From Bacteroidota bacterium (lineage in GTDB: Bacteria > Bacteroidota > Bacteroidia > Bacteroidales > B39-G9): a stretch of DNA of 45,959 nt. The position numbers and the translations under genes are program-made. The stretch covers positions 1 to 45,959 of the forward strand of contig JADFUR010000114.1 in the NCBI GenBank assembly GCA_015222055.1, given 5' to 3'. Shown here in pieces: positions 13,651 to 36,951 of this stretch. How positions within the stretch are numbered: position 1 is the first letter of the stretch; the number at the start of each line of letters is the position of its first letter. The notes below the pieces were generated by a model. It saw nothing but the letters and a program-made list of their open reading frames with translations. It was not told where the DNA came from and did no database searches.

Positions 13651-13690
13651 AATAAATCCCGTTAAATGTTTTAACGGGATTTATTTTTAA
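13651..13690 (+). terminator. Strong terminator after htpG
   Basis: A 16-base-pair perfect stem (13651-13666 with 13670-13685, centred on CCCGTTAAA/TTTAACGGG) with a three-base loop is followed by a T-rich tail. It starts 15 bases after the htpG stop codon. The flanking A-run makes it usable in both directions, but only the plus strand has a gene ending here. Confidence 0.9.
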
Positions 13691-13737: not shown

Positions 13738-13791
13738 CTACACTTGTACTTTCGTTTATATGAAGGTGTAGTTTTTATAACTCTTATATTT

Positions 13792-15633
13792 ATGAATCAA
13801 AATAGAAAAAGTGCTTTTTTTGGTGTTTTACTTATTCTTTTACTAATATCTCCCATTGTAAAATCCCAATATAAATTACCTGAAGAACTTCAAAAGAGGA
13901 TAAATAATTATCAAGAACAAATAACTCAAGCTCAAATTAATGAAGAGAAAAATGAAGAAGGGCGGTTGCTTAATTTATTATCATCATTATATTGGGATAA
14001 TAATTTTAACAAAGAAGCAATAACCTGCTTTAAAAAGTCACTCGAAATAAACAAACAAATAGGAAATAAATATGCTATTTATCAAATAAATACCAACATT
14101 GGTTTAATTTATTCTGATATGATGAGTTATGCTCAGGCAATGAACTACTTTAATGATAGTTATACAATAAGCAAAAAATTAAAAAGCAAGCCTAAAAAAG
14201 CCTCTGCATTAAATAATATTGCACTTACATTTCAATATTCTGGCAAATATCAAAAGGCAATAAATAATTCACAAGAAGCTTTAAGATTTGCTAAAGAAAC
14301 AAAGGATATTAAGCTTATTAAGAGTTGCTATGGAATAATAGCCGAGAATTACAAAAAGCTAGGAAATACTGAGAAATCTTTTGAGTATTTTAATTATTAT
14401 TCGTCCATTAGTAAACATATTCAAAATCAAGAAATAATAAAGAAGGAACAAAAGAATCAACAAGAGGTTGATAAGATGAAGAATATTACAAATAAAGCCA
14501 TTGAAGATAAGGAAGAAAAAGAAAAACAATTAATAATAACAGAAAGCGATTTGTCAAACCAAAAAGAGTTGACTAAAGGGAAACAGTTGCAAATTGATAT
14601 TCTTGATAAAGAAAAAAAAATTAAAGAATTAAAAATCAATGAACAAAAAGCACAAATTAAAACTGATGCTTTAATAAGAAATTTTTTTATTATTGGGTTC
14701 ATAGTTGTCTTAATATTTTCAGCATTATTATATAGATTATTACTTGAAAAGAAAAAAACTAATAGAATATTAGAAAAAACCAATGTTCAACTTAAGGAAC
14801 AAAAAGAAAAAATTGAACAACAAAGCAGTTTGCTTGCTGAAGCACACAAAAATTTAAAAAAGAGGAATTTGCAAATTCTTGACAGCATTAGTTATGCAAG
14901 CAGAATTCAAGATGCTATTTTGCCATATCAAAATTTTATAAGAAAACAACTACCAAATTCATTTGTGTTTTTTAAACCTCGTGATATTGTAAGTGGTGAT
15001 TTTTATTGGTATTCAGAACAAAATAATAAAATTTTTATTGCAGCAGCTGATTGTACTGGGCATGGTGTGCCAGGTGCTTTTATGTCAATGATTGGAAACA
15101 CTTTATTAAATGAGATTATTAAAACAAAACAAATTTTATCTCCATCATTAATACTCGAAAGATTAAACAAAGAGGTTGTCTCTATATTAAATCAGGATAG
15201 TGATAATCAAAATTTTCAAGATGATGGCATGGACATTAGCATTTGCTGTATAGATAAGGATAATGACGAATTTACAATTGCATGTGCTAACAGTACAGCA
15301 TATTTTATCGAAGATAATAATCTTCATACTATAAACGGAGATGTTTTTTCAATTGGAGGAGTTTTTTCTAATAAGTTTGACGTTTCTTTTAATAATCATT
15401 CTTTTAAAACTAATAAAGATTCTGTACTATATATGTTTTCCGATGGGTTTAAAGATCAATTTGGTGGTAAAAACAATGAGAAATTTATGATAGGTCAGTT
15501 TGAAGATATGTTATTGAATATTCATGCGAAAAATATGGATAAACAAAAATTAATAATTGGTGATACTTTGAATGATTGGAAAGGCGATTTTTCTCAAGTT
15601 GATGATATTCTGATTATTGGTGTTAAGTTTTAA
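13792..15633 (+). CDS. TPR sensor with membrane-anchored SpoIIE/PP2C phosphatase domain
   Basis: A 613-residue inner-membrane serine/threonine phosphatase. An N-terminal signal-like segment (about 6-24, ending VKSQ) is followed by periplasmic tetratricopeptide repeats (about 56-210). A charged coiled coil leads to one transmembrane helix (about 296-318), then a second cytoplasmic coiled coil. The SpoIIE domain (about 383-613) shows PRDIVSGDFYW, ADCTGHGVPGAFMSMIG, DGMDISICCID, MFSDGFKDQFGG and QVDDILIIG, which supply the metal-binding aspartates. The ATG at 13792 is preferred over the upstream TTG at 13744 because it starts the signal segment. It is first of three consecutive phosphatase genes, with the next ATG 10 bases after its stop. 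It is a SiaA-like candidate phosphatase for the SiaC proteins downstream. Confidence 0.88.
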   Translation: MNQNRKSAFFGVLLILLLISPIVKSQYKLPEELQKRINNYQEQITQAQINEEKNEEGRLLNLLSSLYWDNNFNKEAITCFKKSLEINKQIGNKYAIYQINTNIGLIYSDMMSYAQAMNYFNDSYTISKKLKSKPKKASALNNIALTFQYSGKYQKAINNSQEALRFAKETKDIKLIKSCYGIIAENYKKLGNTEKSFEYFNYYSSISKHIQNQEIIKKEQKNQQEVDKMKNITNKAIEDKEEKEKQLIITESDLSNQKELTKGKQLQIDILDKEKKIKELKINEQKAQIKTDALIRNFFIIGFIVVLIFSALLYRLLLEKKKTNRILEKTNVQLKEQKEKIEQQSSLLAEAHKNLKKRNLQILDSISYASRIQDAILPYQNFIRKQLPNSFVFFKPRDIVSGDFYWYSEQNNKIFIAAADCTGHGVPGAFMSMIGNTLLNEIIKTKQILSPSLILERLNKEVVSILNQDSDNQNFQDDGMDISICCIDKDNDEFTIACANSTAYFIEDNNLHTINGDVFSIGGVFSNKFDVSFNNHSFKTNKDSVLYMFSDGFKDQFGGKNNEKFMIGQFEDMLLNIHAKNMDKQKLIIGDTLNDWKGDFSQVDDILIIGVKF

Positions 15634-15643
15634 GATGGAATTT

Positions 15644-18600
15644 ATGAAAATATTTTTAAAAAATACAATCTCCATACTTTTTATATTTTTGATTTCTGGG
15701 TTTATTCTATTAGGCCAAGATAATTATCCAAAAGGCTTGCCATTTATAAAAAATTATTCCTTTGAAGAACAGAAAATAAGCTTGCAAAATTGGGCAATTG
15801 CTCAGGACAATTCTGGTATAATGTATTTTGCTAATACAGATGGAGTATTAATATATGACGGTGTTTCTTGGGAGTTATTAAAATTACCTAATAATACGAA
15901 TACTCGTGCTTTGGTTGTTGATAGTTTAGGAGTAATATATGCTGGAGCAACTAACCAATTTGGGTATTTGAAAAATAGCTCAAAAGGAAAATTAGAATAC
16001 ATTTCATTGTCTGACAGCATGTCAGAAATTGATTTTGAAGAAACCTGGAAAATTTTTTCTTCAACTAATGGAATGTATTTTATGGCAGGACGAAGAAATA
16101 TTTATAATTTTCACAACAAGAAACTTACAAAGGTTTATGTTCCTTCTCAAATGTCAATTTTTAGGTTTTTTCAGGTAAATGATGATATCTATGCTGTTGA
16201 TGAAAAGGAAGGTTTTTTTAAGATTGTAGGAGATACATTAATAAATCTTCACCAAGGTAAATCAATTAGCAATAAGTATGTATATACTATGCTACCATAT
16301 AAAAACAACAAGATTTTAATTGGAACAAGAAATTCTGGACTATATTTGTATTCCCCTAAAGACAATAATAATAAACAAGTTCATTTTGATCAATTATCAA
16401 ATAATTCAAGCTTAGATAAGTCAATTGTAAAATTTGAAACACAAATTGATGATTATTTTTTGAATTCACGTATTTATTCAGGAAGTTTATTGAGTAATGG
16501 AAATTATATTATAACAACATTAAGGAGGGGGTGTGCTATTATATCCCCTGAAGGCAAGCTTGTTAATATTTTTAATAAAACTTTGGGGCTGTCTTCAAAT
16601 TCAGTTTATTTTTCTTTTCAAGATAAGCAAAAAAATTTATGGTTAGCAACAGAAAAAGGCGTTTCAAAAATTTTAATAAATTCGCCAATTACCCAATTAA
16701 ATGAAAAAAATGGAATTTCGGGCAGTTTGCAGTCAGTTTTTGAATTCAATAAAAACTTGTTTGTCACATCTACATCAGGAATGTATTATTTGCCGAAATT
16801 AGATAATAAATGGATTAAGAATAAACATTCAATATTGCCCCTTTCAACGCAATATCTTTATTATAAGACAGATTTTTTAGAATTAAAATTGGCTGACAAA
16901 ATTTTTTTATTAGCAGGATCTTTAAGAGATATTGTTAAAATTAATGATAATTTGACCATTTCACCAATAAAGGAATTTTATGCTTGTAATAGTATTTGTG
17001 AATCAGTAATTAATCCAGGAAGAGTCTTTTTTGGTAGCCAAAATGGTATTTCATCATTATCATTTAAACGGGATTTTAATAACAAGATTGTTATTAAAGA
17101 CGAAGGTTTTATTAAAGATTTTAATGAAAACGTTTTACTACTTAATACTGATAAAAAAGGAGATTTGTGGATTTCTACTTTTCTGAATGGAATAATTAAG
17201 ATATGTTTTGATGACAAAGAAAATTTGTCAAATTATAAAAAGTGCTATTTCGATACTACTAATGGGTTGCCGAATACAGATGAGCATAAGACTTATTTTG
17301 TTGATGATAAAATAGTTGTTGCTACCAAAAAAGGACTTTATACTATTAACGATACTACTGTTGATTCAAATAATTATCAATTTGTGCCCTTAAAAGATTA
17401 TGGGTTAGATTATTCAATTGATTTATTGTCAATTAAGGACATATTTGTTGACAAGGACAATAACAAATGGTTTAACACATCGCAAGGTATATACAAATAT
17501 AATGACAGGCTAAAAAAAGTAGTTGTAAATCCATTTAAAATAATATCAAAATATTTTTTTAAAAATATTTTCATTGATAAAAATGGCATCGCATGGTTTT
17601 CTTCCTCAGATATATTATTTCGCTTCGATAAAAAAGTCCAATATTCTATAGATTGTAATTTTCACCCTTTGATTAGAAAAGTTACAATAGCTAAAGATTC
17701 TATTATTTATCATGGATATTCAAAAAAAGATTCTTCTATAGTATGCAATACAAAAATAAATTTCAAAAACAATTCAATTTTTTTCGAATATACTTTACCT
17801 GATTATAATTCTGAAAAAGATAATAAATTTAAATATTTTCTTCAAGGTTTTGATGAGGAATGGAGTGATTGGTCTTCTCAAACAAAAAAGGAATACACAA
17901 ATTTACGAGAAGGAACATATTCTTTTAGAGTTAAAGCTAAAAACGTTTATGATTATGAAAGTGGTGAGTTCGTTTATAAGTTTACAATTTCTCCACCTTG
18001 GTATAGAACAATTATGGCTTTTATTATTTACATTATTTTGATAGCTTTAATAATTTATCAGTATATAAATTTAAAAACTTTACATCTGAAAAGCGAAAAG
18101 CAAAAATTAAAAAAAGGAATAAAGATTGCAGTAGAAGAGCTTGAACAACAAAAAGAAGAATTAAAATCACAAACAGAAATTTTAGTTGATACTAATAAGG
18201 AACTGGAAAAATTATCACTAGTAGTACAAAAAACAGAAAATGCCATATCTATAATAGACAGTGATGGTAATTTTGAATGGGTTAATCCAGGGTTTACTCG
18301 TATGTATGGTATGAATTTTAAGGAGTTTATTTCTAAAATTTCACCAAATATTAAAACTGTAGAAAAAGGAGAAAAAGTAACAACGGTCGTTGAAAAATGT
18401 TTTAATGAAAAGGTATCTGTTAGTTATGAATTCAAGACAATTGATTCGAAAGGTGATCGATTATGGGCAAAAACAACCCTAACTCCAATACTCAATAACA
18501 ATGGAAATATTATTAAAGTTGTTGCTATTGATACAGATATAACTAAACTTATTGATGCTGAAGAACGAATTGAAAAACAAAACGAGAAAATTCTTAAGCA

Positions 18601-19837
18601 AGCCAATAATTTAGTTAGCATTAATAAGGAATTGAAAAAATTGTCGATTGTTGCAAGTAAAACGGACAATGCAGTGGCTTTAATGGATGCTAAAGGTAAT
18701 TTTGAGTGGGTTAATTATGGTTTTACCAATATGTATGGTTATACTATTGACGAATTAGTTAATGAAAAAAATAATATTATTGGATTTGATGCAAGTCTTG
18801 ATATAAATGATTTAATAAGTGTTTGGTTTGGTAAGAAACAAGCAATTATTTATGAAACAGAAAAAGTTACTAAAAGAGCTGAGAAAATTTGGGTTCAAAC
18901 GACTTTAACACCAATTTTGGATGAAAGTAATAAAGTACAAAAATTAATTGCAATAGATTCTGATATTAGTAAAATAAAAAGAGCAGAAGAGCAAATTCAA
19001 CAAAAAAATGATAAAATAGAAACACAACGAGATTTTGCTTTAAAACAGAGGGATGAAATTTCAATGCAAAAACAGGAAATTATTGATAGTATAATTTATG
19101 CTAAACGAATACAAACAGCAGTACTCCCTTCAAAGAAAAGAATAAGTAAAATTATCCCGGAATATTTTATTTTATATAAACCACGCAATATTGTTAGCGG
19201 TGATTTTTATTGGATACAAGAGAAAGATAATAAAGTAATAATTGTAGTTGCTGATTGTACAGGACATGGTGTGCCAGGAGCTTTTATGAGTCTTATTGGA
19301 ATCTCTTTTATTAACGAGATTGTAAACGTAAATAATATTATAAAACCAAATGAAATTTTAGATAATCTAAAGACACGAATCATTAACTCCTTACAGCAAA
19401 CGAGCCGAGAAGACAGCATACGTGATGGTATGGATATGTCAATTTGCGTAATTGATAAAGAAAAAAATGTTTTAAATTTTGCAGGAGCTAATAATCCGAT
19501 ATATATTGTAAGGGATGATGAGCTTATTGAAGTCACTCCAGACAAGATGCCTGTTAGTATTTATAAAAACATTTCAAAACCATTTACAAATCATAAAATT
19601 AATTTAACTAAGGGCGATTTACTTTATTTGTTTACCGATGGTTACGCAGATCAATTTGGAGGTGAAAAAGCAAAAAAATTTAAGTATAGACAATTTAAAC
19701 AATTGTTTTTAAAAATTAAAGAAGCAAGCATGTTTGAACAAAAACTTATTCTTGACAAAGAGTTTGAGAGATGGTCTGGAAATTTAGAGCAGGTAGATGA
19801 TATTTTAGTATTGGGTATTAGATATAATGGACAGTGA
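15644..19837 (+). CDS. Propeller/Y_Y_Y sensor with two PAS domains and a SpoIIE/PP2C phosphatase
   Basis: A giant 1397-residue membrane sensor. A signal peptide is followed by a periplasmic two-component-regulator-type beta-propeller (about 30-690, with repeats such as NSGIMYFANTDGVLIYDG and QKNLWLATEKGVSKI) and a Y_Y_Y domain (about 729-782, FLQGFDEEWSDWSSQTKKEYTNL). One transmembrane helix (about 787-807) and a coiled coil lead to two PAS domains in tandem (about 862-965 and 1002-1110; both contain NAxxxxDxxGNFEWVNxGFTxMYG and end with IDxDIxK/T). The SpoIIE phosphatase (about 1165-1397) follows, with SGDFYWI, ADCTGHGVPGAFMSLIG, LFTDGYADQFGG and QVDDILVLG. The architecture is that of Bacteroidota hybrid two-component systems, with a PP2C output in place of a kinase. 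It is 10 bases downstream of the TPR-SpoIIE gene. The ATG at 15635 is an alternative start. Confidence 0.9.
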   Translation: MKIFLKNTISILFIFLISGFILLGQDNYPKGLPFIKNYSFEEQKISLQNWAIAQDNSGIMYFANTDGVLIYDGVSWELLKLPNNTNTRALVVDSLGVIYAGATNQFGYLKNSSKGKLEYISLSDSMSEIDFEETWKIFSSTNGMYFMAGRRNIYNFHNKKLTKVYVPSQMSIFRFFQVNDDIYAVDEKEGFFKIVGDTLINLHQGKSISNKYVYTMLPYKNNKILIGTRNSGLYLYSPKDNNNKQVHFDQLSNNSSLDKSIVKFETQIDDYFLNSRIYSGSLLSNGNYIITTLRRGCAIISPEGKLVNIFNKTLGLSSNSVYFSFQDKQKNLWLATEKGVSKILINSPITQLNEKNGISGSLQSVFEFNKNLFVTSTSGMYYLPKLDNKWIKNKHSILPLSTQYLYYKTDFLELKLADKIFLLAGSLRDIVKINDNLTISPIKEFYACNSICESVINPGRVFFGSQNGISSLSFKRDFNNKIVIKDEGFIKDFNENVLLLNTDKKGDLWISTFLNGIIKICFDDKENLSNYKKCYFDTTNGLPNTDEHKTYFVDDKIVVATKKGLYTINDTTVDSNNYQFVPLKDYGLDYSIDLLSIKDIFVDKDNNKWFNTSQGIYKYNDRLKKVVVNPFKIISKYFFKNIFIDKNGIAWFSSSDILFRFDKKVQYSIDCNFHPLIRKVTIAKDSIIYHGYSKKDSSIVCNTKINFKNNSIFFEYTLPDYNSEKDNKFKYFLQGFDEEWSDWSSQTKKEYTNLREGTYSFRVKAKNVYDYESGEFVYKFTISPPWYRTIMAFIIYIILIALIIYQYINLKTLHLKSEKQKLKKGIKIAVEELEQQKEELKSQTEILVDTNKELEKLSLVVQKTENAISIIDSDGNFEWVNPGFTRMYGMNFKEFISKISPNIKTVEKGEKVTTVVEKCFNEKVSVSYEFKTIDSKGDRLWAKTTLTPILNNNGNIIKVVAIDTDITKLIDAEERIEKQNEKILKQANNLVSINKELKKLSIVASKTDNAVALMDAKGNFEWVNYGFTNMYGYTIDELVNEKNNIIGFDASLDINDLISVWFGKKQAIIYETEKVTKRAEKIWVQTTLTPILDESNKVQKLIAIDSDISKIKRAEEQIQQKNDKIETQRDFALKQRDEISMQKQEIIDSIIYAKRIQTAVLPSKKRISKIIPEYFILYKPRNIVSGDFYWIQEKDNKVIIVVADCTGHGVPGAFMSLIGISFINEIVNVNNIIKPNEILDNLKTRIINSLQQTSREDSIRDGMDMSICVIDKEKNVLNFAGANNPIYIVRDDELIEVTPDKMPVSIYKNISKPFTNHKINLTKGDLLYLFTDGYADQFGGEKAKKFKYRQFKQLFLKIKEASMFEQKLILDKEFERWSGNLEQVDDILVLGIRYNGQ

Positions 19838-19963
19838 GTTTGTAATTTGAAGAAAAATATTTTTGTTAGTAATTAATAATAATTTAAATTATAGACAAAA
19901 GGCGAATACCAAAATCATTATAGGCAAATATAAAAACGAATAGTCTATTTAACATATAGATAC

Positions 19964-22900
19964 ATGAAAAATTTGAAAATTTATATTTTATTAGTGCTTT
20001 TTCTTTACGTCTCAAACTGTTTTTCGCAGAAAGTAGATTATAAAGGGATGCCGTTTATAAGAAATTTTTCAGCAAAAGAATATAATGGGCAAGGTCAAAA
20101 TTGGGCCGTTGCACAAGATATAAGAGGAGTAATGTATTTTGGAAATGGTTCTGGAATATTAGAATTTGATGGAGAAAATTGGAGAAAATATAAAATTACT
20201 AATCATTCAAATGTTCGATCATTAGCAATTGACAGCAACGGAACTCTTTTTGTTGGGGCTTTTAACGAATTTGGATATATGACATCCGATTCTTCGGGGA
20301 GGCTTAGCTATGTTTCTCTAATGAATAAATTAGAAGAAAAAGATAGAAAGTTTAATGATGTTTGGAAAATTTGTATTACTACAGAAGGTGTTTTCTTTTT
20401 AACAATAAATAAGATTTATAAATATCACAATAATGAATTTAAAGTAATAAATATTAAATTACTTTCGTCATTGGGTTTTGTGGCAAACAACCAACTATTC
20501 CTTATTCAAGAAGATAAGGGTCTATTTGTGTTTAAAAACGATACCGTAGTAAAACTGCCACAAACCTCAAATATTTATGTTGATTTTATTATTCCATTTT
20601 ATGATAATAAAATTTTAATTTATAACTCTAAAGGTTTTTATGTTTATAATCTGGCATTAGTTAGTAGAAATGAAAATTCAAAAAAATATTATGATAAAGA
20701 TTTTCCTTCATCAATAATTAAAAAAATTAATTTACAGGTCGAAAATTATATTCGTGAAAATGGCTTGTATTCATTCTCAAAAATAGATGACAATTCATTT
20801 GCAGCAGGAACTATGCGAGGAGGGATGATAATTTTTGATAAAAAAGGAGATTTTGTTCAGCTTGTAAACAAAAATTTTGGGTTGCAAAACAATACAGTTT
20901 TATTCATATATGTTGATAAGAGTAAAAATATTTGGGTAGCTTTAAACAGTGGGATATCTTATTTGCAAATTAATTCTCCAATTACTCGTTATACCTCTTT
21001 AAATAAGATAGAAGGGGGTGTATTAAATTTAACTAGACATAATAACACAACTTATTATTGTACTGCACACGGAGTTTTTTACATTCCAGAATTTAATTTA
21101 AAAAATGCAAATAAAAAATATTCAGTATTAAAAGTAAAAAATGCAGATTTTACCTTTTGGGATTTTATTAAAATAAATGGATGCCTGCTTGCTGGTGGTA
21201 GTTATGGCATTGTTCAAATTAAAGATTCAATAGCAATAGAAGTTGCTGCAACTAATTCAATTTATTCCTTTGGAAAATCCAAAAGATTATCTAATTATTT
21301 ATTTCTAGGTTTAACATCGGGATTTATGTCATTAGAAATAGACACAAATAATAAAAGTGGAAATGTAAAATTTATTAAAAGACATAATTTCGATGAATTT
21401 AACGAACCTATTAGACTTATTACAAGCGATAGTCTTGGTAATCTTTGGTTGACTTCTGAATATAACGGAATATATAAAGTCGACTTTTTGTCAGACAATG
21501 ATGAAAAATACAAAATTACGCATTATGACACTGCTGACGGTTTGCCCCAACTAGATAATAATTTTGCATATAATATTAATAATAAGATGCTTATTTCAAC
21601 ATCAAAAGGCGTTTTTAAACCAATCCCTAGTAATAAAGGAAAAAATATTAAATTTGTTCGAGACACCTCTTTTCAAGAATTTTTTAATTCGAAAAGAGTT
21701 AATAAAATTGATATTGATAAAGGAAATAAATTATGGGCAAGTACTGATTTTAATATAGGCTCTTTCCAGAAAGGTGAGAAATCAAAATTGATTTATAACG
21801 ACACTGTATTTAGAAAGTTAACTAATTTGTATAGTTTTTGTATTGATTCATCAGGAGTAATATGGATTTATAATGAAAATGAAAAAATTTACCGTTATGA
21901 TGATAATATTAAGCAAGATTATCACATTTCTCATAGAGCTTTGATTAGAGAGGTGAAAATATCCTTAGATTCTTCAATTTTTTATGGGACGTATTTTAAT
22001 GATACTATTAAAAAAAGCAAATATTATACTAGGCTATCCTATACACAACCAAATACTTTAATACCTATAATAAATCATAAAAATAATTCAGTTAGCTTTT
22101 CCTTTTCGTCAACATTTTTTGAGAATTCAAAAACAAATAAGTATAAATATAAATTAATAGGTTTTGATAAGAAATGGAGCAATTGGGTAGAACAAACAAA
22201 AAAAGAATATACAAACCTACCGAATGGAGATTACAATTTCGTAGTTAAATCAAAAAATTATTATGGAATTGAGAGTTCTCAGGCATCTTTCAAATTTACT
22301 GTTTTGCCACCTTGGTTTAAAACAATTTTGGCTTATGTTTTTTATGCAATAATTTTCATTTTATTAATATTTCTAATTTTACGAATTAATTCAAAGCGTC
22401 TTTTAGCAGCGAACTTGAAACTTGAAGAAATTGTTAGACAACGTACTTCAGAAATTAGACAGCAAAAAGAGGAGTTGCAAGCAAATAGTAAATTAATAAA
22501 ATCTGTTAATAAAGAACTGAAAAGGAAAAGTGTTTTAATAACCGATAGTCTCAGCTATGCAAAGCGAATACAAGATTCAACACTACCCTCAAATGTGATG
22601 ATTAAAAAATATTTACCACAATCATTTGTTTTTTTTCATCCTAGAGATATTGTTAGTGGTGATTTTTATTGGTTTGCAACATATAACAACAAAGAAATTA
22701 TTGCTGTTGTAGATTCTACTGGTCATGGTGTGCCAGGAGCTTTTATGTCAATGATTGGTAATACTTTATTAAACGAAATTGTAATTAATGAGAAAGTATA
22801 CAAACCGTCTCTTATATTGGAAAAATTAAACTCAGGTATTATAAAGGTTTTAAATCAAGAAATTGAAACTGATGATGTGCAAAATGATGGCATGAATATA

Positions 22901-23302
22901 AGCATTTGTTGCATTGATAAGATTAATAAACAAATAGAGATTGCTAATGCCGATCAAATGGCATATTTAATTAGAGACAATAACGTTATAACAATTGATG
23001 CAGATATATTCTCTGTGGGTGGAAATTTTAGCAGGAAGTTTGATGTAAGATTTACAAATAGAATATTTGATTACAAAGAGGGTGATATGCTATATTTATT
23101 TTCCGATGGTTATCAAGATCAGTTTGGAGGAAAAAATAATACTAAATTTATGGCCAGTAATTTTAAACAATTATTATTGAGTTTAAGTAAAATTGAAATA
23201 CAAAAACAATTTGAGACTTTAAACGATACATTCTTTAAATGGAAAGGTAATACTCGTCAGATTGATGACGTTCTGGTTATTGGAATAAGATTAGATTTTT
23301 AG
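19964..23302 (+). CDS. Propeller/Y_Y_Y sensor with SpoIIE/PP2C phosphatase (no PAS)
   Basis: A 1112-residue paralogue of the preceding gene. It has a signal peptide (cleavage near NCFSQ), a periplasmic propeller with the same opening signature (YKGMPFIRNFSAKEYNGQGQNWAVAQDIRGVMYFGNGSG), a Y_Y_Y domain (about 725-780), a transmembrane helix (about 785-807), a coiled coil and a SpoIIE domain (about 882-1112). Both PAS domains of its neighbour are absent. The catalytic motifs are intact: SGDFYWF, VDSTGHGVPGAFMSMIG (Ser in place of the Cys of its two neighbours), LFSDGYQDQFGG and QIDDVLVIG. It is 126 bases after its neighbour and could be co-transcribed. Its stop codon overlaps that of the convergent siaC-like gene by four bases. 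Confidence 0.9.
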   Translation: MKNLKIYILLVLFLYVSNCFSQKVDYKGMPFIRNFSAKEYNGQGQNWAVAQDIRGVMYFGNGSGILEFDGENWRKYKITNHSNVRSLAIDSNGTLFVGAFNEFGYMTSDSSGRLSYVSLMNKLEEKDRKFNDVWKICITTEGVFFLTINKIYKYHNNEFKVINIKLLSSLGFVANNQLFLIQEDKGLFVFKNDTVVKLPQTSNIYVDFIIPFYDNKILIYNSKGFYVYNLALVSRNENSKKYYDKDFPSSIIKKINLQVENYIRENGLYSFSKIDDNSFAAGTMRGGMIIFDKKGDFVQLVNKNFGLQNNTVLFIYVDKSKNIWVALNSGISYLQINSPITRYTSLNKIEGGVLNLTRHNNTTYYCTAHGVFYIPEFNLKNANKKYSVLKVKNADFTFWDFIKINGCLLAGGSYGIVQIKDSIAIEVAATNSIYSFGKSKRLSNYLFLGLTSGFMSLEIDTNNKSGNVKFIKRHNFDEFNEPIRLITSDSLGNLWLTSEYNGIYKVDFLSDNDEKYKITHYDTADGLPQLDNNFAYNINNKMLISTSKGVFKPIPSNKGKNIKFVRDTSFQEFFNSKRVNKIDIDKGNKLWASTDFNIGSFQKGEKSKLIYNDTVFRKLTNLYSFCIDSSGVIWIYNENEKIYRYDDNIKQDYHISHRALIREVKISLDSSIFYGTYFNDTIKKSKYYTRLSYTQPNTLIPIINHKNNSVSFSFSSTFFENSKTNKYKYKLIGFDKKWSNWVEQTKKEYTNLPNGDYNFVVKSKNYYGIESSQASFKFTVLPPWFKTILAYVFYAIIFILLIFLILRINSKRLLAANLKLEEIVRQRTSEIRQQKEELQANSKLIKSVNKELKRKSVLITDSLSYAKRIQDSTLPSNVMIKKYLPQSFVFFHPRDIVSGDFYWFATYNNKEIIAVVDSTGHGVPGAFMSMIGNTLLNEIVINEKVYKPSLILEKLNSGIIKVLNQEIETDDVQNDGMNISICCIDKINKQIEIANADQMAYLIRDNNVITIDADIFSVGGNFSRKFDVRFTNRIFDYKEGDMLYLFSDGYQDQFGGKNNTKFMASNFKQLLLSLSKIEIQKQFETLNDTFFKWKGNTRQIDDVLVIGIRLDF

Positions 23303-23670
23303 AATTCAATTAATTCAAAAGTTAAATCCATAAGTTTTGAATATTTTAAGCCTGAAGCATACATATCTGTATCTTCTTTCTGGTAATACCATTTGATTGT
23401 AACTTTACTTATTTCAGATAACTTTTCCAATAAGAAAAATATTTTTACCAATTGTTTTGCTGTTGAAGTAGAAAAGTAATCTAATTTAAAAGTAAATATA
23501 TTTTCATTATTAGGCTTATCTATATAATTATTTAACCATGTAAATACAGGATGAAAAAAAGCAATAGCATCTTCGGGTAGCGATTTGGATGAAATAGTAA
23601 ATTTGTTTTCGTCAGGAGAAAAATAAATTTCAGGTGTGTCTTCAGTTACTTTTATGTGTAATTTTTCCAT
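23299..23670 (-). CDS. SiaC-family (DUF1987) regulatory phosphoprotein, copy 2
   Basis: A 123-residue cytoplasmic protein of the DUF1987/SiaC family. In Pseudomonas, SiaC is a partner-switch protein phosphorylated on Thr68 by the SiaB kinase and dephosphorylated by the SiaA PP2C phosphatase; the unphosphorylated form binds its target. Here the conserved segment is FKLDYFSTSTAKQL, with Thr at residue 68. Also conserved are TPEIYFSPDENKFTISSKSLPEDA at the N-terminus, PVFTWLNNYI in the middle, and WYYQKEDTDMYASGLKYSKLM near the end. It is 14 bases downstream of a paralogue and ends inside the end of the convergent phosphatase gene. It is the last gene of the siaB-siaC-siaC run. The downstream target is not in the window. 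Confidence 0.9.
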   Translation of the reverse strand: MEKLHIKVTEDTPEIYFSPDENKFTISSKSLPEDAIAFFHPVFTWLNNYIDKPNNENIFTFKLDYFSTSTAKQLVKIFFLLEKLSEISKVTIKWYYQKEDTDMYASGLKYSKLMDLTFELIEF

Positions 23671-23684
23671 ATTATATAAAATAT

Positions 23685-24056
23685 TTAATATTCAAGAATT
23701 TCAAATTCAACATCGATAAGTTTATCATAACGCAATCCCGATGATTGCATATCTAAATCACCTTTTTTGAAAAACCATCTAATTTTTACGTTTTTTAATT
23801 TTTCAATATCTTCCAGCATTAGTAATAATTTTGTTATTTGTTTCGCAGATGCTGTATTAAAATAGTCTAATTTAAAATCAAAAATTGTCTCAGAATTTGG
23901 ATTGTTTTTGTATTTTTCTATCCAATCAAAAATAGGAGTATAAAACTCTACAGCATTTTCAGGAAGAGATCTTTCCGAAATAATAAATTCATTCTCGTTT
24001 TGTTTGAAAGATATTTTAGGCGTTTCTTCAGTTGCCTCAATTGTTAAATCAGTCAT
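23685..24056 (-). CDS. SiaC-family (DUF1987) regulatory phosphoprotein, copy 1
   Basis: A second 123-residue SiaC-type protein, the same length as its neighbour and roughly half identical to it. The phospho-acceptor segment is FKLDYFNTASAKQI with Thr68 preceded by Asn, closer to the classic NTSS-type motif than the other copy (STST). The C-terminal WFFKKGDLDMQSSGLRYDKLIDVEFEI matches the family. It starts two bases after the stop of the double SiaB kinase, so kinase and substrate are translationally close. Two SiaC copies beside a two-domain kinase suggest that each kinase domain may serve one substrate, which is an inference from copy number only. Confidence 0.92.
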   Translation of the reverse strand: MTDLTIEATEETPKISFKQNENEFIISERSLPENAVEFYTPIFDWIEKYKNNPNSETIFDFKLDYFNTASAKQITKLLLMLEDIEKLKNVKIRWFFKKGDLDMQSSGLRYDKLIDVEFEILEY

Positions 24057-24058
24057 AA

Positions 24059-25171
24059 TTAATCTTTATATTCTATAGCAGTTCTAATAGTAAAAAAAGA
24101 AAATTTTTCATTGATTCTATTGAAATTGTAAACTATTTTGTTTTTGCTCTTTAGACGCAGCTCTATTAATCCTAAGCCAGCTTCTTTACTGCTATCAATT
24201 TGAAAGTTAAATAATCTATCATTATAAAATTTATTAAGATTTTTATCATCTAAACTATTTACATGTTCGATTTTTAATTTTAAGTTATCTACTTTGTTGT
24301 TATAAATGTAATTTCCTGAATTTAAATAATATGTATTATTTTTTTTGTTTATAAAGAATATCCCAGAATTACCCTTGTCTTTTTCAAGAGCATCCCCATG
24401 TTTTACAATGTTTTGAAGCATTTCAACCATAATATTAAAAACTCTCTTTTTTAGTAACAAGGCATTTGACATATGTTCCTCAATTATTGAAAGCAGATTG
24501 ATTAAATTATCTTGGTTTAAAATACCATTGAATATTAATAGAACATCTTCTTTATTTAGAATATTATGAAGCTGTTTTATGTTTGTTAATGAGTAAGTAA
24601 TATTTTCATTTTTAGCATCTTGTGATATGGAAATCTCTGTGTAAAGATAAAAGTAAGAGAATTCATCATCAATTTTTTTAAAATCATAAGTTAATTTGTT
24701 GCCAGACTTTCTTGCTATTTCTATAAGACCTAATCCTGCTCCACCTTTATTCGACATCATATTGTCGTTTAAAACCGACTTGTAAAATTTTTTCAGTTCT
24801 TCTTTTTCAAGACTGTTTATTTTATCTAATTGACTTGTTAATTTTGGGATATGATCTTTTGCAATGAGGTTTCCGGTAGTAATATAATATCTATTTTTTT
24901 TTTGTTGGATAACAAAAATTCCAGATCTGTCATCTTTACTTAGTAAATCTTGATGGCGAGTTATATTTTGGAGTCCTTCAACCATGATTGAAAAAACTCT
25001 TTTTTTCATTTTGGAAGATTCTCCAAAATTTTCCAAATTTGTTTCTGTCAACGAAATAATTTTATCAGTTACACCTTGAGTAAAAAGACCTCTATAAATG
25101 TAACTTAAATTATCCTTTTCCATGCCCTCAAATAATTGAAAAGCAAAACTCAAATCATTTAACATAAACAT
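24059..25171 (-). CDS. Tandem double-domain SiaB-family protein kinase
   Basis: A 370-residue cytoplasmic protein made of two SiaB-family (DUF6272) kinase domains in one chain, whereas SiaB is normally a single domain of about 180 residues. Domain 1 (about 1-180) has the GHKL-like N-box VFSIMVEGLQNITRH (E65, N69) and glycine box GGAGLGLIEIARKSG (about 143-157). Domain 2 (about 190-370) repeats these as VFNIMVEMLQNIVKHGD (E250, N254) and EAGLGLIELRLKS (about 330-342). Both boxes are intact in both halves, so neither is obviously dead. It should phosphorylate the two SiaC proteins encoded directly downstream. ATGs at 25169-25171 and 25163-25165 are both possible starts. It lies 81 bases from dapF, on the same strand. 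Confidence 0.88.
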   Translation of the reverse strand: MFMLNDLSFAFQLFEGMEKDNLSYIYRGLFTQGVTDKIISLTETNLENFGESSKMKKRVFSIMVEGLQNITRHQDLLSKDDRSGIFVIQQKKNRYYITTGNLIAKDHIPKLTSQLDKINSLEKEELKKFYKSVLNDNMMSNKGGAGLGLIEIARKSGNKLTYDFKKIDDEFSYFYLYTEISISQDAKNENITYSLTNIKQLHNILNKEDVLLIFNGILNQDNLINLLSIIEEHMSNALLLKKRVFNIMVEMLQNIVKHGDALEKDKGNSGIFFINKKNNTYYLNSGNYIYNNKVDNLKLKIEHVNSLDDKNLNKFYNDRLFNFQIDSSKEAGLGLIELRLKSKNKIVYNFNRINEKFSFFTIRTAIEYKD

Positions 25172-31282: not shown

Positions 31283-31624
31283 TTATTCAAAACTAATAAT
31301 GCAGTTGTCAATATTATCATAAATATCGAAAACTTTATCAAGTTTAGTTATATGAATTAACTCCATTGTTTCATCTGACACATTGCAAATTTTAAAAAAA
31401 GAATTGTTGAGTTTTGATGTTTTATAAGCAGATACTAGAGCCCCAAATCCTGAACTGTCAATAAAGTGAACACCTTGCAAATTTAATATTAGTTTTGTTC
31501 CACTATTAACTAAATGCTTGTTGAGATCTTTTTTTACATCCTCAGAAATTAAAATATTAAATCTGTTAATATTATTCTCAAAAGAAGCCAGTAGAATATC
31601 TTTAAGTTCTTTTATTATTAACAT
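31283..31624 (-). CDS. STAS-domain anti-sigma-factor-antagonist-like protein
   Basis: A 113-residue single STAS domain. The central strand and helix LILNLQGVHFIDSSGFGALVSAYKTSK is diagnostic, and D56-S57-S58-G59 lines up with the SpoIIAA phospho-serine motif, so Ser58 is a likely phosphorylation site. Such proteins switch partners when phosphorylated by an RsbW-type kinase and dephosphorylated by a SpoIIE-type phosphatase. No RsbW-type kinase or matching sigma factor is adjacent. It follows the hybrid histidine kinase gene by 21 bases and looks like the last gene of that operon. Three SpoIIE phosphatases lie 8-18 kb away and could be functional partners, which is only inference. Confidence 0.88.
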   Translation of the reverse strand: MLIIKELKDILLASFENNINRFNILISEDVKKDLNKHLVNSGTKLILNLQGVHFIDSSGFGALVSAYKTSKLNNSFFKICNVSDETMELIHITKLDKVFDIYDNIDNCIISFE

Positions 31625-31645
31625 ATGTTTTTGAGTTAAAAATTA

Positions 31646-33919
31646 TTAAAAATTTTTAATTAAAAAATCAAGTTCATGAAGAACCAATTTTAAAATTTTT
31701 TCAAATTTAGAAATAATTAATGGATATTTCTCAATTTCTTTTTCTTCTTTTGCACAAATTTCTAAATTTTTCATATCATCGGCGAGTTCTGATATACCAA
31801 GCATTGCAACTGATGATTTTGCTCGATGAGCTACTGAGCTAAGTTCTTGCCATTTTTTGTCATTATAGGCAGTATTTAATTCTTCAATAAATTCAGGTAT
31901 CTGGGATTTAAAAATATTAATAAATTCTATAATAATATTATTGTCGTTTTCAGCAACACTTTTTAAATAAGAAAGATTAACAAATTTTTCAATAAATGGC
32001 TCATTATTATTTGCAGTATTTGATAAAAAAGTTGAAATTTTTTTAAAGAAAATGTTTTGTTTAAAGGGTTTAGAAATATAATCGTTCATGCCAATATTAA
32101 GACATTTTTCTTTTTCGCCTTTAATTGCTGCTGCAGTAAGTGCAATAATTGGGATGTTCTTTTTGTTAATATCAAAATTGTTTCTAATATATTGTGTCGT
32201 TTCGTACCCGTCCATTTCAGGCATGTGCAAGTCCATTAGTATAAGATCGTAGTTATTATCTTTAAATTTTTCGATAGCAATTTTACCATTATTTGCTACA
32301 TCAACATTTATTTGAATTTTTTTTAACAGAGTAGCTACAAAGAGTTGGTTTATCTCGTTGTCTTCAACTAAAAGAATGGATTTTTTTAAATTATAATTTA
32401 AATTATGAAATGAATTTTCTGCTTTTACATCAATTGTTTTCCCGAGTGATTTTTTAGTTCTATCAGATTTTTTAAAGGTAATATTAAATGAAAATGCACT
32501 TCCTTTTCCCAGAGTACTTTTAACATAAATATTTCCTCCTTGCAATTCTATTAATTGTTTGGTTATTGTAAGTCCTAATCCTGTGCCACCATATTTTCTT
32601 GTTGTGTCGCTTCTTGCTTGACTAAAACTTGAAAAAATTGTGTCAAGTTTATCTTTTGAAATCCCAATTCCTGTATCAATAATTGAAAATAATATAGTTG
32701 TATTTTTTAAGTCATTTTCAACAACTTTAGCTATTATGGAGATACTTCCTTTTTTAGTGAACCTAATAGCATTACTAATAAGATTTGATAATATTTGAAT
32801 TAATCTGATTTGGTCACCTAAAATATATTCAGGGACATTGCTATTTATGTCAAGTTTAAGTGAAAGTTTGTTCTGTTTTGTTTTATAATCAAAAGTAGCA
32901 ATGAGCTTTTTTAATATATCATATAGATTAAATTCAACTTTTTCAAATTCAATTTTTCCAGCTTCTAATTTAGAGAAGTCAAGTATATCGTTGATGATAA
33001 TTAATAGGTTGTCAGCTGAATTAGTAATATTGCCAAGGTATAGAATTTGATTTTCAGCAAGTGAAGTGTCTGCTAAAAGGTTTGCCATTCCAATAATGCC
33101 ATTAATTGGAGTGCGAATTTCATGGCTCATGTTAGCAAGAAATTGTTCTTTAATTTTAACGGAACTTTCTGCTTGTTCTTTAGCAAGAGTTAATACAATA
33201 TTTTGTTTTTCAATTTGTGTAAGCATTATATTGAAACCTTGAATTAACTGACCAATTTCATCATTGCCTTTTTTTTCAATACGAATCGAGAAATCTTTAT
33301 TTGTTGATATTTCATCAGTCAGTTTAGCGAGACTTAAAATAGGCCAGGAAATGATTTGTTGCAATTTTATTGAAAGCAAAAAAGCAATAAATAAAGAAAA
33401 AAATAAAATTAATGAAATCACTTTAAAAAAATTTGATATACGTTCACTAAATTCTTCTAAATCGGAATTAATATATATAGTTCCAATCACTTCATTATCT
33501 AAATAAATTGGTTTGAATATAATAAGTGAGTTATTATTAAAAATAGTAGAATCTTTATGTGTTGAAGGAAGACTAATTTTTGTAGAAAATGAAGGGTCTC
33601 TTTTAAATTCTGCAAATAAATCCCCATTTTTGTTAAATATTGATGCTTCCCTAATATGTTTGTACGAACTTAAAAAGCCAAGAATTTTAATAGCTTCGTC
33701 TTTACTGTTGAAAAAAAGGTTTGCCGTATTATTGTCACCAATAACCTCTGCTAACGTTGTTAAGTCTCTAATTGACTTTACTTCAAACTGAGTTCTATCA
33801 TAAGCGTAAAATATAAGACCTGATAGAATCAGAGATACAGAGGAAATAATAAGAACAAGTCCTACAATTTTGAACTTTATCGAAATGTCATTAAAATTTA
33901 ATTTCATTTGAGGATACAA
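31646..33919 (-). CDS. Hybrid histidine kinase with CHASE8-like sensor, HAMP, receiver and Hpt
   Basis: A 757-residue inner-membrane kinase. Transmembrane helix 1 (about 17-40) is followed by a periplasmic domain (about 46-160, with [43 protein letters not shown] and [14 protein letters not shown]) resembling CHASE8, the sensor type found in YfiN. Transmembrane helix 2 (about 165-188) leads to HAMP, then HisKA ([13 protein letters not shown]), an ATPase domain ([18 protein letters not shown]), a receiver ([16 protein letters not shown], with Lys in YISKPF), and a C-terminal Hpt ([13 protein letters not shown]). The phosphorelay is complete, but no final response regulator follows. The start overlaps the yfiR-like gene by 29 bases, or 17 if ATG 33905-33907 is used. 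Coupling to YfiR suggests that the periplasmic sensor is controlled by it. Confidence 0.93.
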
Positions 33920-34469
33920 TTTTAGCTAAAATTAGAAGCTTTGAGCTAATTATAATATTTGATTGAATAGCGATATCATTGTTTATTTCAAATCGATGGC
34001 TTGAATACTGCTGCAAAAAATTTAAAATGCCTCCAGATATGCAAAAATTTTCAATATTATCTCCAATTGTTAGTACTGCTTTATTTTTAGTTTTATCAAT
34101 AATTTTAATGAGTTCAGACTTGTCAACTTGCGAAATAAATAATATATGACATTTGGTAATATCTTCAGGTTTGTTAAAATATTTTATTATCCACTTTCTA
34201 CCATTAACAGTTCTTTTGTTAATAGTTCTATTTAGAATAACTCCAAAGGGGTTTGTCCCATATACTCCTAATATTAAGTGAGATGTTTTAGATGAAAAAG
34301 AATTTTCTGGCCATTTTACAAATTTTGCAAAATTAAAAATATAGGCTGCTTTTACTTCATATTCTGTATATGATTGGCTGTATGATTTTAGAAAAATTGC
34401 ACACATTAATATACTCAAAAATGAAATATGAGTGAGGTAAAGTTTATATTTTGTAAAAATATTCCTCAA
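33891..34469 (-). CDS. YfiR-family (DUF4154) periplasmic regulator
   Basis: A 192-residue protein with a signal peptide ending near YSQSY. The family pattern is clear: [20 protein letters not shown] at the start, [21 protein letters not shown], and the C-terminal block [20 protein letters not shown], then [28 protein letters not shown]. In Pseudomonas, YfiR is a periplasmic protein that represses the CHASE8-HAMP-GGDEF cyclase YfiN. Here it stands one base from the upstream OmpA gene and overlaps the downstream CHASE8-HAMP histidine kinase, so it probably controls that kinase. Two Cys are visible in the mature part, fewer than the four that form disulfides in the Pseudomonas protein. Confidence 0.9.
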
Positions 34470-34470
34470 G

Positions 34471-36951
34471 TTATTTTTTTTTATTTTTAGTAATTACATC
34501 GAAAATTTTAATATCGACTTTTCTATTTTTTAATAGTTGCTCTTTATTTTTTTCACCAAATGATTTACTTTCACCAAATCCTTTTATTATTGTGCGTTTG
34601 GTATCAATATTTTTATCAACAAAAAATTTTAAAACCGAGTTCGCCCTTTTAATAGATAAATTGAGATTGAAATATTCTTCTCCCTGTGTGTCGGCATAAC
34701 CGAAAATTTCAATTCCTAATGAGGGATTATTTATTAGTAATTCTGATATTTGATTTAATTTTATTATATATTTTTTATTAATTAAAAATTTGTTTTTGTT
34801 AAAGTATAGATTATACTCTAAAATGATTTTTCTATCGTTTTTTTTTGATGTGCGCATATTAACAGCATTCGTATTTTTGACAAATTTTTCAGCTTCTTTT
34901 TTTTTGAAATTATTAATGTAAGTGCCTCTTTTTGTATTCGTTTTTGTATAAAGCGTCGGAACAGTATAAATTGTATCTTCATCAATAATAAATTGTTGTA
35001 AATTATTTTTTTTATTGTCTGTTGCATAAAAATACGATTGTGATGATTTTTTATTATAAAGCGTATTTTCGTCCAATATTTGCAAAGAAACAGTGTCAGT
35101 GGTTTCAATAGCTTTTTCAATTAAAGAAAATAATCTATCATAATTTTTTTCTTCTTTAGAGCTGTCAGAAAGTGTGTTTTCATTAGAGTGCTCAAGTTTT
35201 TCAATCCCAATAGAATCGGTAGTGTTTATTATGTCTTCAACGAGTTTTAAGAGTTGGTCGTAATCTTTTGTTCCTGTTGTGTCATATTTTATTATTGAAT
35301 CAGCAAAAGGTGTTTTATATATATCGTAAAAAGTATTATTAACAGAAATATTTTCTCCAACTTTTTTACCCAAACTTGTTATAGGACGCAGATGAATTTC
35401 CTGAAATAATTCATAAAAATATGTTTGGTTTGGTATATATATATGTATTCTTTGAGGCAAGTAGTTCTTGGCTTCAACAATCATATCGTAATTTTTGTCT
35501 GGAGGGAAAATCATTAAGTATCTTCCGGTTTTTGGGTTAGGATTATAAACATATTTAATTTTGGTATTTGTTTTATTATCAATCACTTTAATTTTAGCAC
35601 AAATAGGCTTTTTCGGATCTCCTGAAAATATTCTTCCCTTTACTAATGTTAAGGGGATTGAGCCTTTTAAGTTAATTTTGTAAATATGTGTATTTATCAA
35701 AAGATTGTTTTGTATTGAAGAGTAGTAGCCTGACTGACCATCTGCTGTTAATACAAAATATAAATCATCTTTTGTAGTGTTTGGGAATCCAATGTTTTTA
35801 GGTTCTGACCAGTTATTTTTTGTTAATTTTGATTTAAAAATGTCACAGCCGCCAATTGTTTCATGACCTTTTGAACTAAAATATATCGTTTTTCCGTCAG
35901 GATGAATAAATGGAGAACCATCATCATATATAGAATTTATTGGCAAATTCAAATTTATTGCTTTTCCCCATTCCCCATTAGATTTTTTAATTGATGTGTA
36001 AATATCTTTGCCTCCAAAGCCACCTGGTCTGTCACTTGAAAAATATAGTTGTTGTCTGTCAGGTGTAATGCTCACTCTTCCCTCATTAAATTTTGAATTA
36101 ATATTTTTGTTTAATTTTTTTAAATTAATGCAATTTCCAGCTATAAATTCGCAAGAATAAATATCTTGTCTCTTATTATTATAAATATTTATAAATAATT
36201 GAGTCCCATCTGGCGATAGACCTGCTAATGAAATATTTTTTTTGCTGTCAGAATAAGGAATTGAGAATTCTATAGGATCACTCCATACCCCATCATTATT
36301 ATTAGAATAAAAGAAATGGATTTTTTGGTCATATTTTTTAAGTTTAATGTTAGAGTTCTCTTCATTATTTATTATTCTTGTAAAAAACATTATACTTTCG
36401 TCTGATGATATTAGAGGGTTCAATTCCGAATTTTTAGTAGATATAGGATAACCAACATTTTCTACGTCTGCATTAAACTCTTGGGAAGTAATTTTTTTTG
36501 CAGTATTACAAATTTTTATCATTCGTTTTGCATAGATAAGATATTTGTCATTTTTGCTGGAAAGAGAAATATATTTTTGGAAATTTGTAATTGCTCTGTC
36601 AAATTGATAATCTAAATGATAAAGTGTTCCTAACTCTTTAAACACAATCTTAGGTTCTTCAATACTTTTATCTTTACTAACAGCCTCAAGGTAAGGAATG
36701 GCATTGGTTTTTTTGTGTTTTGAGTTCAAATAACAAGCTCCAACTTTATATTTAATAACATTATCATTCGGAATTAAAGAATCTAATTGAAGGAAATTTT
36801 TTAATGCTTCACTATATTTTTCATCATTAAAAAGTTTTCTTGCCGTTTTTAATAGTTTATGAGTATTAATATCTGAATTTTGAGCAAAAGTTTGTACCTT
36901 TATGCTCGAAAGCAGAATTGATGATATAATTATTATCAATATTTTTTTCAC
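34471..36951 (-). CDS. TPR-PD40-OmpA outer-membrane/peptidoglycan-binding protein (PorE-like layout)
   Basis: An 826-residue exported protein (signal peptide ending TFAQ). Order: TPR-like helices (about 30-150); a PD40/WD40-like propeller (about 165-425) with DRQQLYFSSDRPGGFGGKDIY and DGKTIYFSSKGHETIGGCDIF; a carboxypeptidase-regulatory-like beta domain (about 440-525); a low-complexity linker with two similar DYDQLLKLVEDIINTTD / NYDRLFSLIEKAIETTD segments; and a C-terminal OmpA peptidoglycan-binding domain (about 715-820, IEIFGYADTQGEEYFNLNLSIKRANSV). This layout matches PorE of the T9SS, but many paralogues exist. It is first in the operon leading to yfiR-like and kinase genes, where it occupies the place of the OmpA lipoprotein YfiB. 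It is a paralogue of the 38265 gene. Confidence 0.87.
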   Translation of the reverse strand: MKKILIIIISSILLSSIKVQTFAQNSDINTHKLLKTARKLFNDEKYSEALKNFLQLDSLIPNDNVIKYKVGACYLNSKHKKTNAIPYLEAVSKDKSIEEPKIVFKELGTLYHLDYQFDRAITNFQKYISLSSKNDKYLIYAKRMIKICNTAKKITSQEFNADVENVGYPISTKNSELNPLISSDESIMFFTRIINNEENSNIKLKKYDQKIHFFYSNNNDGVWSDPIEFSIPYSDSKKNISLAGLSPDGTQLFINIYNNKRQDIYSCEFIAGNCINLKKLNKNINSKFNEGRVSITPDRQQLYFSSDRPGGFGGKDIYTSIKKSNGEWGKAINLNLPINSIYDDGSPFIHPDGKTIYFSSKGHETIGGCDIFKSKLTKNNWSEPKNIGFPNTTKDDLYFVLTADGQSGYYSSIQNNLLINTHIYKINLKGSIPLTLVKGRIFSGDPKKPICAKIKVIDNKTNTKIKYVYNPNPKTGRYLMIFPPDKNYDMIVEAKNYLPQRIHIYIPNQTYFYELFQEIHLRPITSLGKKVGENISVNNTFYDIYKTPFADSIIKYDTTGTKDYDQLLKLVEDIINTTDSIGIEKLEHSNENTLSDSSKEEKNYDRLFSLIEKAIETTDTVSLQILDENTLYNKKSSQSYFYATDNKKNNLQQFIIDEDTIYTVPTLYTKTNTKRGTYINNFKKKEAEKFVKNTNAVNMRTSKKNDRKIILEYNLYFNKNKFLINKKYIIKLNQISELLINNPSLGIEIFGYADTQGEEYFNLNLSIKRANSVLKFFVDKNIDTKRTIIKGFGESKSFGEKNKEQLLKNRKVDIKIFDVITKNKKK

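Follow-up and report, generated by a model that had tools for sequence, protein, structure and literature searches.

The Sia switch controls biofilm signalling in Pseudomonas, and to our knowledge the only role established for its phosphoprotein, SiaC, is to activate a single diguanylate cyclase. When unphosphorylated, the SiaC of P. aeruginosa binds a helical stalk of SiaD, with Thr68 placed between the helices, and phosphorylation blocks the binding (PMC8457831). DUF1987 was called widespread in the same eLife paper and was proposed to modulate adjacent proteins (PMC8457831). Apart from that remark, a search of freely available papers returned no account of such modules from the Bacteroidota.

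The locus described here lies in a 45,959-nucleotide stretch of DNA from a Bacteroidota bacterium, referred to as the window, and has several properties that resemble the SiaABCD system of P. aeruginosa (PMC7647112, PMC8457831, PMC12834913). As in that system, membrane SpoIIE/PP2C phosphatase genes are found together with a gene for a SiaB-family GHKL kinase, and the likeness extends to Thr68 of SiaC, the PP2C metal ligands, the linker motif and the kinase fold (6kko, Z 19.9). The window differs in having three phosphatases, whose sensors are TPR repeats or propellers, rather than one SiaA; in having two SiaCs, a tandem kinase and convergent genes rather than one operon; and in coming from a genome without SiaD or any GGDEF domain. 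The SiaABCD equivalog models (NF038263, NF038264, NF038265) remained below cut-off, with 124 of the 225 bits needed for SiaB and 62 and 67 of the 150 bits needed for SiaC. Because of these scores and the missing cyclase, the window system is not SiaABCD itself.

The locus also shares with RsbU-RsbW-RsbV and SpoIIE-SpoIIAB-SpoIIAA a PP2C phosphatase that opposes a GHKL kinase on a small phosphoprotein, and the C-terminal domain of its kinase has a predicted fold like that of UsfX/SpoIIAB. However, SiaC belongs to a separate Pfam family (PF09345) and not to the STAS proteins, no sigma factor is known to take part, and the locus holds no STAS substrate, the STAS gene of the window being 6 kb away with a hybrid kinase. 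The hybrid two-component systems of Bacteroides (HTCS; 3v9f, 4a2l) resemble the phosphatases P2 and P3 in their Reg_prop propeller and Y_Y_Y sensor, but the output of P2 and P3 is a PP2C phosphatase rather than a histidine kinase, and Pfam detected no HisKA domain in either. The parts of the locus belong to known families, with the cyclase-less, multi-input arrangement a probable variant of the SiaABC-type switch. The locus is probably a SiaABC-type partner-switching module that has several inputs, no diguanylate cyclase, and a target gene that is not beside it.

The phosphatases, SiaC proteins and kinase of the window

The six genes were found at the positions given by the original prediction, three phosphatase genes on the forward strand and three sia genes on the reverse strand. 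The phosphatase block (P1-P3, 13792-23302, +) is located downstream of htpG; a hairpin followed by a T run (13654-13682, +), 3' of htpG, is likely to be a terminator that parts htpG from the phosphatase genes. The sia block (23299-25171, -) has the order kinase, SiaC1, SiaC2 and is convergent with the phosphatase block. As predicted, the two blocks meet in a four-base overlap of stop codons, the TTAG at 23299-23302 that ends both P3 (+) and SiaC2 (-). The switch had also been called complete, which is accurate as far as kinase, phosphatase and substrate are concerned; the locus does not include a target gene.

P1 (13792-15633, +; Pfam TPR_12 and SpoIIE) consists of a signal peptide, periplasmic TPR repeats, one transmembrane segment, a coiled coil (DSISYASRIQDAILP) and a PP2C domain, with a TTG at 13744 as a possible alternative start. 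Pfam and sequence comparisons resolved P2 (15635-19837, +) into a Reg_prop propeller, a Y_Y_Y domain, a transmembrane segment, two PAS domains, a SiaA-type linker (DSIIYAKRIQTAVLP) and a PP2C domain, and P3 (19964-23302, +) into propeller, Y_Y_Y domain, transmembrane segment, SiaA-type linker and PP2C domain. All three align to the crystal structure of the P. aeruginosa SiaA PP2C domain (6k4e), with alignments that run from the coiled-coil linker to the C terminus. This structure was the best PDB sequence match of P1 (E 4.9e-35, from the linker through the C-terminal end), and the corresponding values for P2 and P3 were 1.5e-33 and 4.1e-27. The active-site Asp residues named for SiaA (PMC7647112) are conserved in P1, P2 and P3, as are the PP2C motifs SGDF, DxTGHG, SDG/TDG and DD and the linker DSxxYAxxIQ; with Asp metal ligands and SiaA linker in place, all three carry phosphatase domains of the SiaA type. 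Against the full-length SiaA model they score 157-193 bits, below the cut-off of 700, because their sensors differ. In sequence searches, the sensors of P2 and P3, the two largest phosphatases, match 3v9f and 4a2l, which are sensors of Bacteroides hybrid two-component systems, in agreement with the original prediction. The claim of three membrane SpoIIE/PP2C phosphatases stands, but not that each has a different sensor, since these two are of one kind (propeller plus Y_Y_Y).

SiaC2 (23299-23670, -) and SiaC1 (23685-24056, -) match PF09345 with 111.8 and 114.6 bits against a cut-off of 24.5 and so belong to the SiaC family, an assignment that for SiaC2 also draws on alignment. PF09345 is the only family that either protein matches, and no STAS-family substrate occurs among the switch genes. 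Thr68, in the numbering of each protein, is the predicted phospho-acceptor of both: its codon is 23467-23469 in SiaC2 (motif YFSTSTAK) and 23853-23855 in SiaC1 (motif YFNTASAK), and SiaC1 was aligned with the SiaC of 6kko/6k4f, where the motif is YLNTSS. Position 68 is Thr or Ser in all 152 related SiaCs.

The kinase (24059-25171, -) contains PF19788 twice and matches the NCBIfam model SiaB_fam_kinase (NF038262) in two stretches, with 271 bits against a cut-off of 85; it has the N-box Glu-Asn and the G2 box of a SiaB-family protein kinase. The predicted double kinase is thus real in having two SiaB-family domains, but the domains are unequal. The N domain (aa 6-180) is canonical, with Glu65, Asn69 and His73 and the G2 box GGAGLG, whereas the C domain (aa 204-370) has Glu250, Asn254 and His258 with a changed G2 box, KEAGLG. 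In an AlphaFold2 model (pLDDT 86), the N domain resembles SiaB (6kko; Z 19.9, rmsd 2.0, 167 aligned) and the C domain resembles the anti-sigma factor UsfX (8ih8; Z 12.0, rmsd 2.5, 124 aligned). The N domain is a canonical SiaB domain; the C domain retains its catalytic Glu, but its ATP lid has diverged.

The same asymmetry is common among double kinases. The halves of 61 double kinases fall into two separate clades on a tree (60 of 61 N halves, 58 of 61 C halves), arguing for one old duplication and fusion, and the G2 box has its first Gly in all 61 N halves but in only 11 of the C halves. The C-terminal half may be a pseudokinase, a reading to which we assign slightly less than an even chance: it would act only as a built-in dimer partner or as a dock for SiaC, leaving one active site for both SiaCs. 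The related kinases SpoIIAB and RsbW act as dimers, which fits this idea, and the separate clades suggest that the roles of the two halves were fixed early. Nevertheless, the catalytic Glu and the N-box Asn are invariant in both halves of all 61 proteins, the C domains have His or Tyr at the end of the N-box, and SiaB itself is without the first Gly of the GG pair.

Linkage in relatives and distribution of the switch genes

A kinase-alignment scan of 84,980 genomes yielded 80 Bacteroidota loci. The double kinase is conserved across Bacteroidales, and SiaC usually comes next. In a first sample of 59 double-kinase loci, SiaC directly followed the kinase in 43 and was fused to it in 5 more; in a second, partly overlapping sample it was adjacent or fused in 31 of 34, including 7 fusions. 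Kinase-kinase-SiaC fusions were seen at 12 loci (L252-L258, L065, L069, L070, L071, L080), and single-kinase-SiaC fusions beside a second SiaC at three others (L160, L161, L199). Some loci (L205, L216) have three or four SiaC genes in tandem, and the array at L216 is flanked by genes for type IX secreted proteins (SprB repeats, Por_Secre_tail).

The phosphatases show a looser but frequent association. A convergent SpoIIE gene is located behind SiaC in 12 of 61 double-kinase entries, counting the window. Several second-sample loci have one too, and the total is about 16 loci; about three quarters of double-kinase loci have no SpoIIE next door. Another member of the genus (L225) has the closest relative of P3 at the equivalent position, where it converges on a kinase-SiaC-SiaC cluster and the contig then ends. 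One locus (L227; G177:C27:108000-127000) has five SpoIIE genes around one double kinase-SiaC pair, three before it and two after. SpoIIE occupies 23 of 161 gene slots behind SiaC, where 1-3 would be expected, and on a tree the PP2C domains adjoining double kinases group together, needing 8-9 label changes where shuffled labels needed 14-24 and none of 1000 shuffles came as low, although both statistics treat related loci as independent and their p values are indicative only. With linkage and co-occurrence (see below) far above expectation, chance adjacency of phosphatase and sia genes was rejected. In keeping with the original prediction, phosphatases and sia genes do occur together in relatives, and several phosphatases facing one kinase-SiaC pair recur in other families.

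The host genome has much more of this machinery. It contains 20 SpoIIE genes, 12 SiaC matches, 5 SiaB-type kinase genes and no GGDEF gene; 17, 10 and 4 of the first three lie beyond the window locus, which therefore appears as one node of a larger network. Most of the host SiaC and SpoIIE genes do not adjoin a kinase, and SiaC and SpoIIE copy numbers climb together genome-wide. These facts lend some weight to the idea of a shared pool, in which the 20 phosphatases, 5 kinase genes and 12 SiaC matches all take part in cross-talk and the window locus is no more than a physical cluster, a possibility that we hold to be the less likely one. The clustering on the PP2C tree argues against it: the double-kinase-linked domains fall into groups of their own, mostly apart from other host phosphatases, which suggests dedicated pairing. 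One exception is a 375-aa host phosphatase (L046) that falls inside the linked group. Because the linked PP2C domains cluster while their sensors differ, the phosphatase domain seems to have been kept with the switch and the sensor exchanged.

Two other features of the host inventory deserve mention. Three SpoIIE proteins of 394 aa (L035:3686-9148, L047:6008-7192) have an N-terminal PP2C-like domain in which some metal-ligand motifs are absent, and from these motifs they are possibly catalytically dead. One SiaC gene (L035:18932-19321, G000:C11), beside DUF2721 and PALP genes, has an in-frame TAG in mid-gene and is a possible pseudogene.

SpoIIE proteins usually act on STAS proteins, and the host has three STAS genes, one of them in the window. 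On this basis P1-P3 might serve classical STAS/RsbW anti-sigma switches and be placed beside the sia genes by accident, but we regard this as very improbable. The host has 20 SpoIIE genes against only 3 STAS and 2 RsbW-type genes above cut-off, the linker DSIxYAxRIQxAxLP is common to SiaA and 15 of the 20 host SpoIIE proteins, and the best solved match is the SiaA PP2C domain. Furthermore, SpoIIE numbers track SiaC across genomes. Among 247 genomes of the order, 103 have SiaC. All of these, but only 2 of the 144 others, have DUF6272, the domain of the kinase (Fisher p 1e-68). At least six SpoIIE genes were present in 85 of the 103 genomes with SiaC and in none of the 144 without it; the median was at least 12 in the former and 1 in the latter, with a maximum of 5, so that SpoIIE copy number is raised only where SiaC is present. 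In a broad draw from the phylum, DUF6272 was above cut-off in only 8 of 148 genomes, and the network is accordingly typical of part of the Bacteroidales and some other Bacteroidota rather than of the whole phylum.

The predicted absence of a cyclase was borne out. No GGDEF domain was found anywhere in the host assembly, which is 98.6% complete and may thus lack about 1.4% of the genome, while control genomes gave matches; the SiaD model NF038266 likewise had no match in the host. Within the order, GGDEF occurs in 11 of 247 genomes and is not enriched with SiaC (4 of 103), leaving 99 of the 103 SiaC-bearing genomes with none. Since a group with almost no such cyclase has by far the greater number of SiaC relatives, the usual function of the family may differ from cyclase activation.

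A working model and the search for a target

The prediction of a SiaA-SiaB-SiaC-type switch with many inputs is partly upheld by the parts, the active-site residues, the conserved linkage and the absent cyclase, but needs amendment in that the kinase halves are unequal and two sensors are alike. By analogy with the SiaC-SiaD mechanism of P. aeruginosa, we infer the pairing of phosphatases with SiaC, the direction of signalling and the kind of target as follows. The two-domain kinase would phosphorylate SiaC1 and SiaC2 at Thr68 by default and hold them in that state until a phosphatase releases them. Each membrane phosphatase would sense a periplasmic cue, P1 by its TPR repeats and P2 and P3 by their glycan-sensor-like propellers, P2 also by its PAS domains. 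The cue would pass via the coiled-coil linker to the PP2C dimer, which would take the phosphate off Thr68, and any of the three stimulated phosphatases could then free SiaC, giving several inputs to a common SiaC pair. Unphosphorylated SiaC would bind and alter a partner protein, probably via a helical stalk as with SiaD; this partner would not be a GGDEF enzyme and would be encoded elsewhere. If true, this arrangement would show a rewiring of histidine-kinase-type sensors to Ser/Thr phosphatases, with many inputs to one switch.

A broader proposal, for and against which we see the chances as evenly balanced, is that Sia switches form the main Ser/Thr partner-switching network of Bacteroidales. 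Dozens of sensor phosphatases per genome would converge on a few SiaB-type kinases. These kinases would include kinase-kinase-SiaC fusions and single-chain tandems whose halves are unequal, and the targets under SiaC control would be an undescribed class unrelated to c-di-GMP.

Apart from SiaC and SpoIIE, no recurrent gene that might be the target was found beside the double kinase, the other neighbours being housekeeping or local genes. The neighbours of other host SiaC genes (Mfd, radical SAM, M48 protease, Macro domain, PALP enzyme, Era-like GTPase) were considered and rejected as they have no common theme. SiaC sites picked as possible orphans mostly turned out to adjoin a single-domain kinase, and so revealed no targets of a lone SiaC; it was there that a transporter surfaced. 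Single-domain kinases occur in phosphatase-kinase-SiaC operons. The gene that follows encodes an ABC-2 transporter whose N domain is TerB-like, and CheB and CheR genes frequently lie upstream. The transporter is co-directional in such operons in 24 single-kinase entries, and in 26 of about 60 other loci a kinase-SiaC pair is convergent with the same transporter family. The host itself has a copy (L029; G000:C101:28000-44000), a SpoIIE(GAF-PAS-PAS)-SiaB-SiaC-TerB/ABC-2 operon of a type conserved in many Bacteroidota. Like the window, this module combines SpoIIE, a SiaB-type kinase and SiaC with no cyclase; it differs in its single-domain kinase, co-directional operon and adjoining transporter.

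From this gene order, the TerB/ABC-2 transporter is the most promising candidate target of SiaC in Bacteroidota. That the transporter (about 1020-1050 aa) is the target, and that the window module acts on it in trans, is nonetheless doubtful. The recurrence beside kinase-SiaC in two gene arrangements, together with the host copy, speaks for it, but the transporter is not beside the double kinase in the window or at other double-kinase loci, and adjacency in relatives can be inherited order. For the SiaABC-type module preferred here, the kinase-SiaC fusions, the transporter of the sister module and the dedicated phosphatases offer direct routes to the function of the SiaC family.

A separate set of genes in the window (31283-36951, -) encodes, in a row, a STAS protein, a CHASE8-HAMP-HisKA-receiver-Hpt hybrid kinase, a YfiR/HmsC-like protein and a PD40-OmpA protein. 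These resemble the parts of YfiBNR with a histidine kinase in place of the GGDEF output. In this GGDEF-free genome they would be the second rewired cyclase regulator of the contig.
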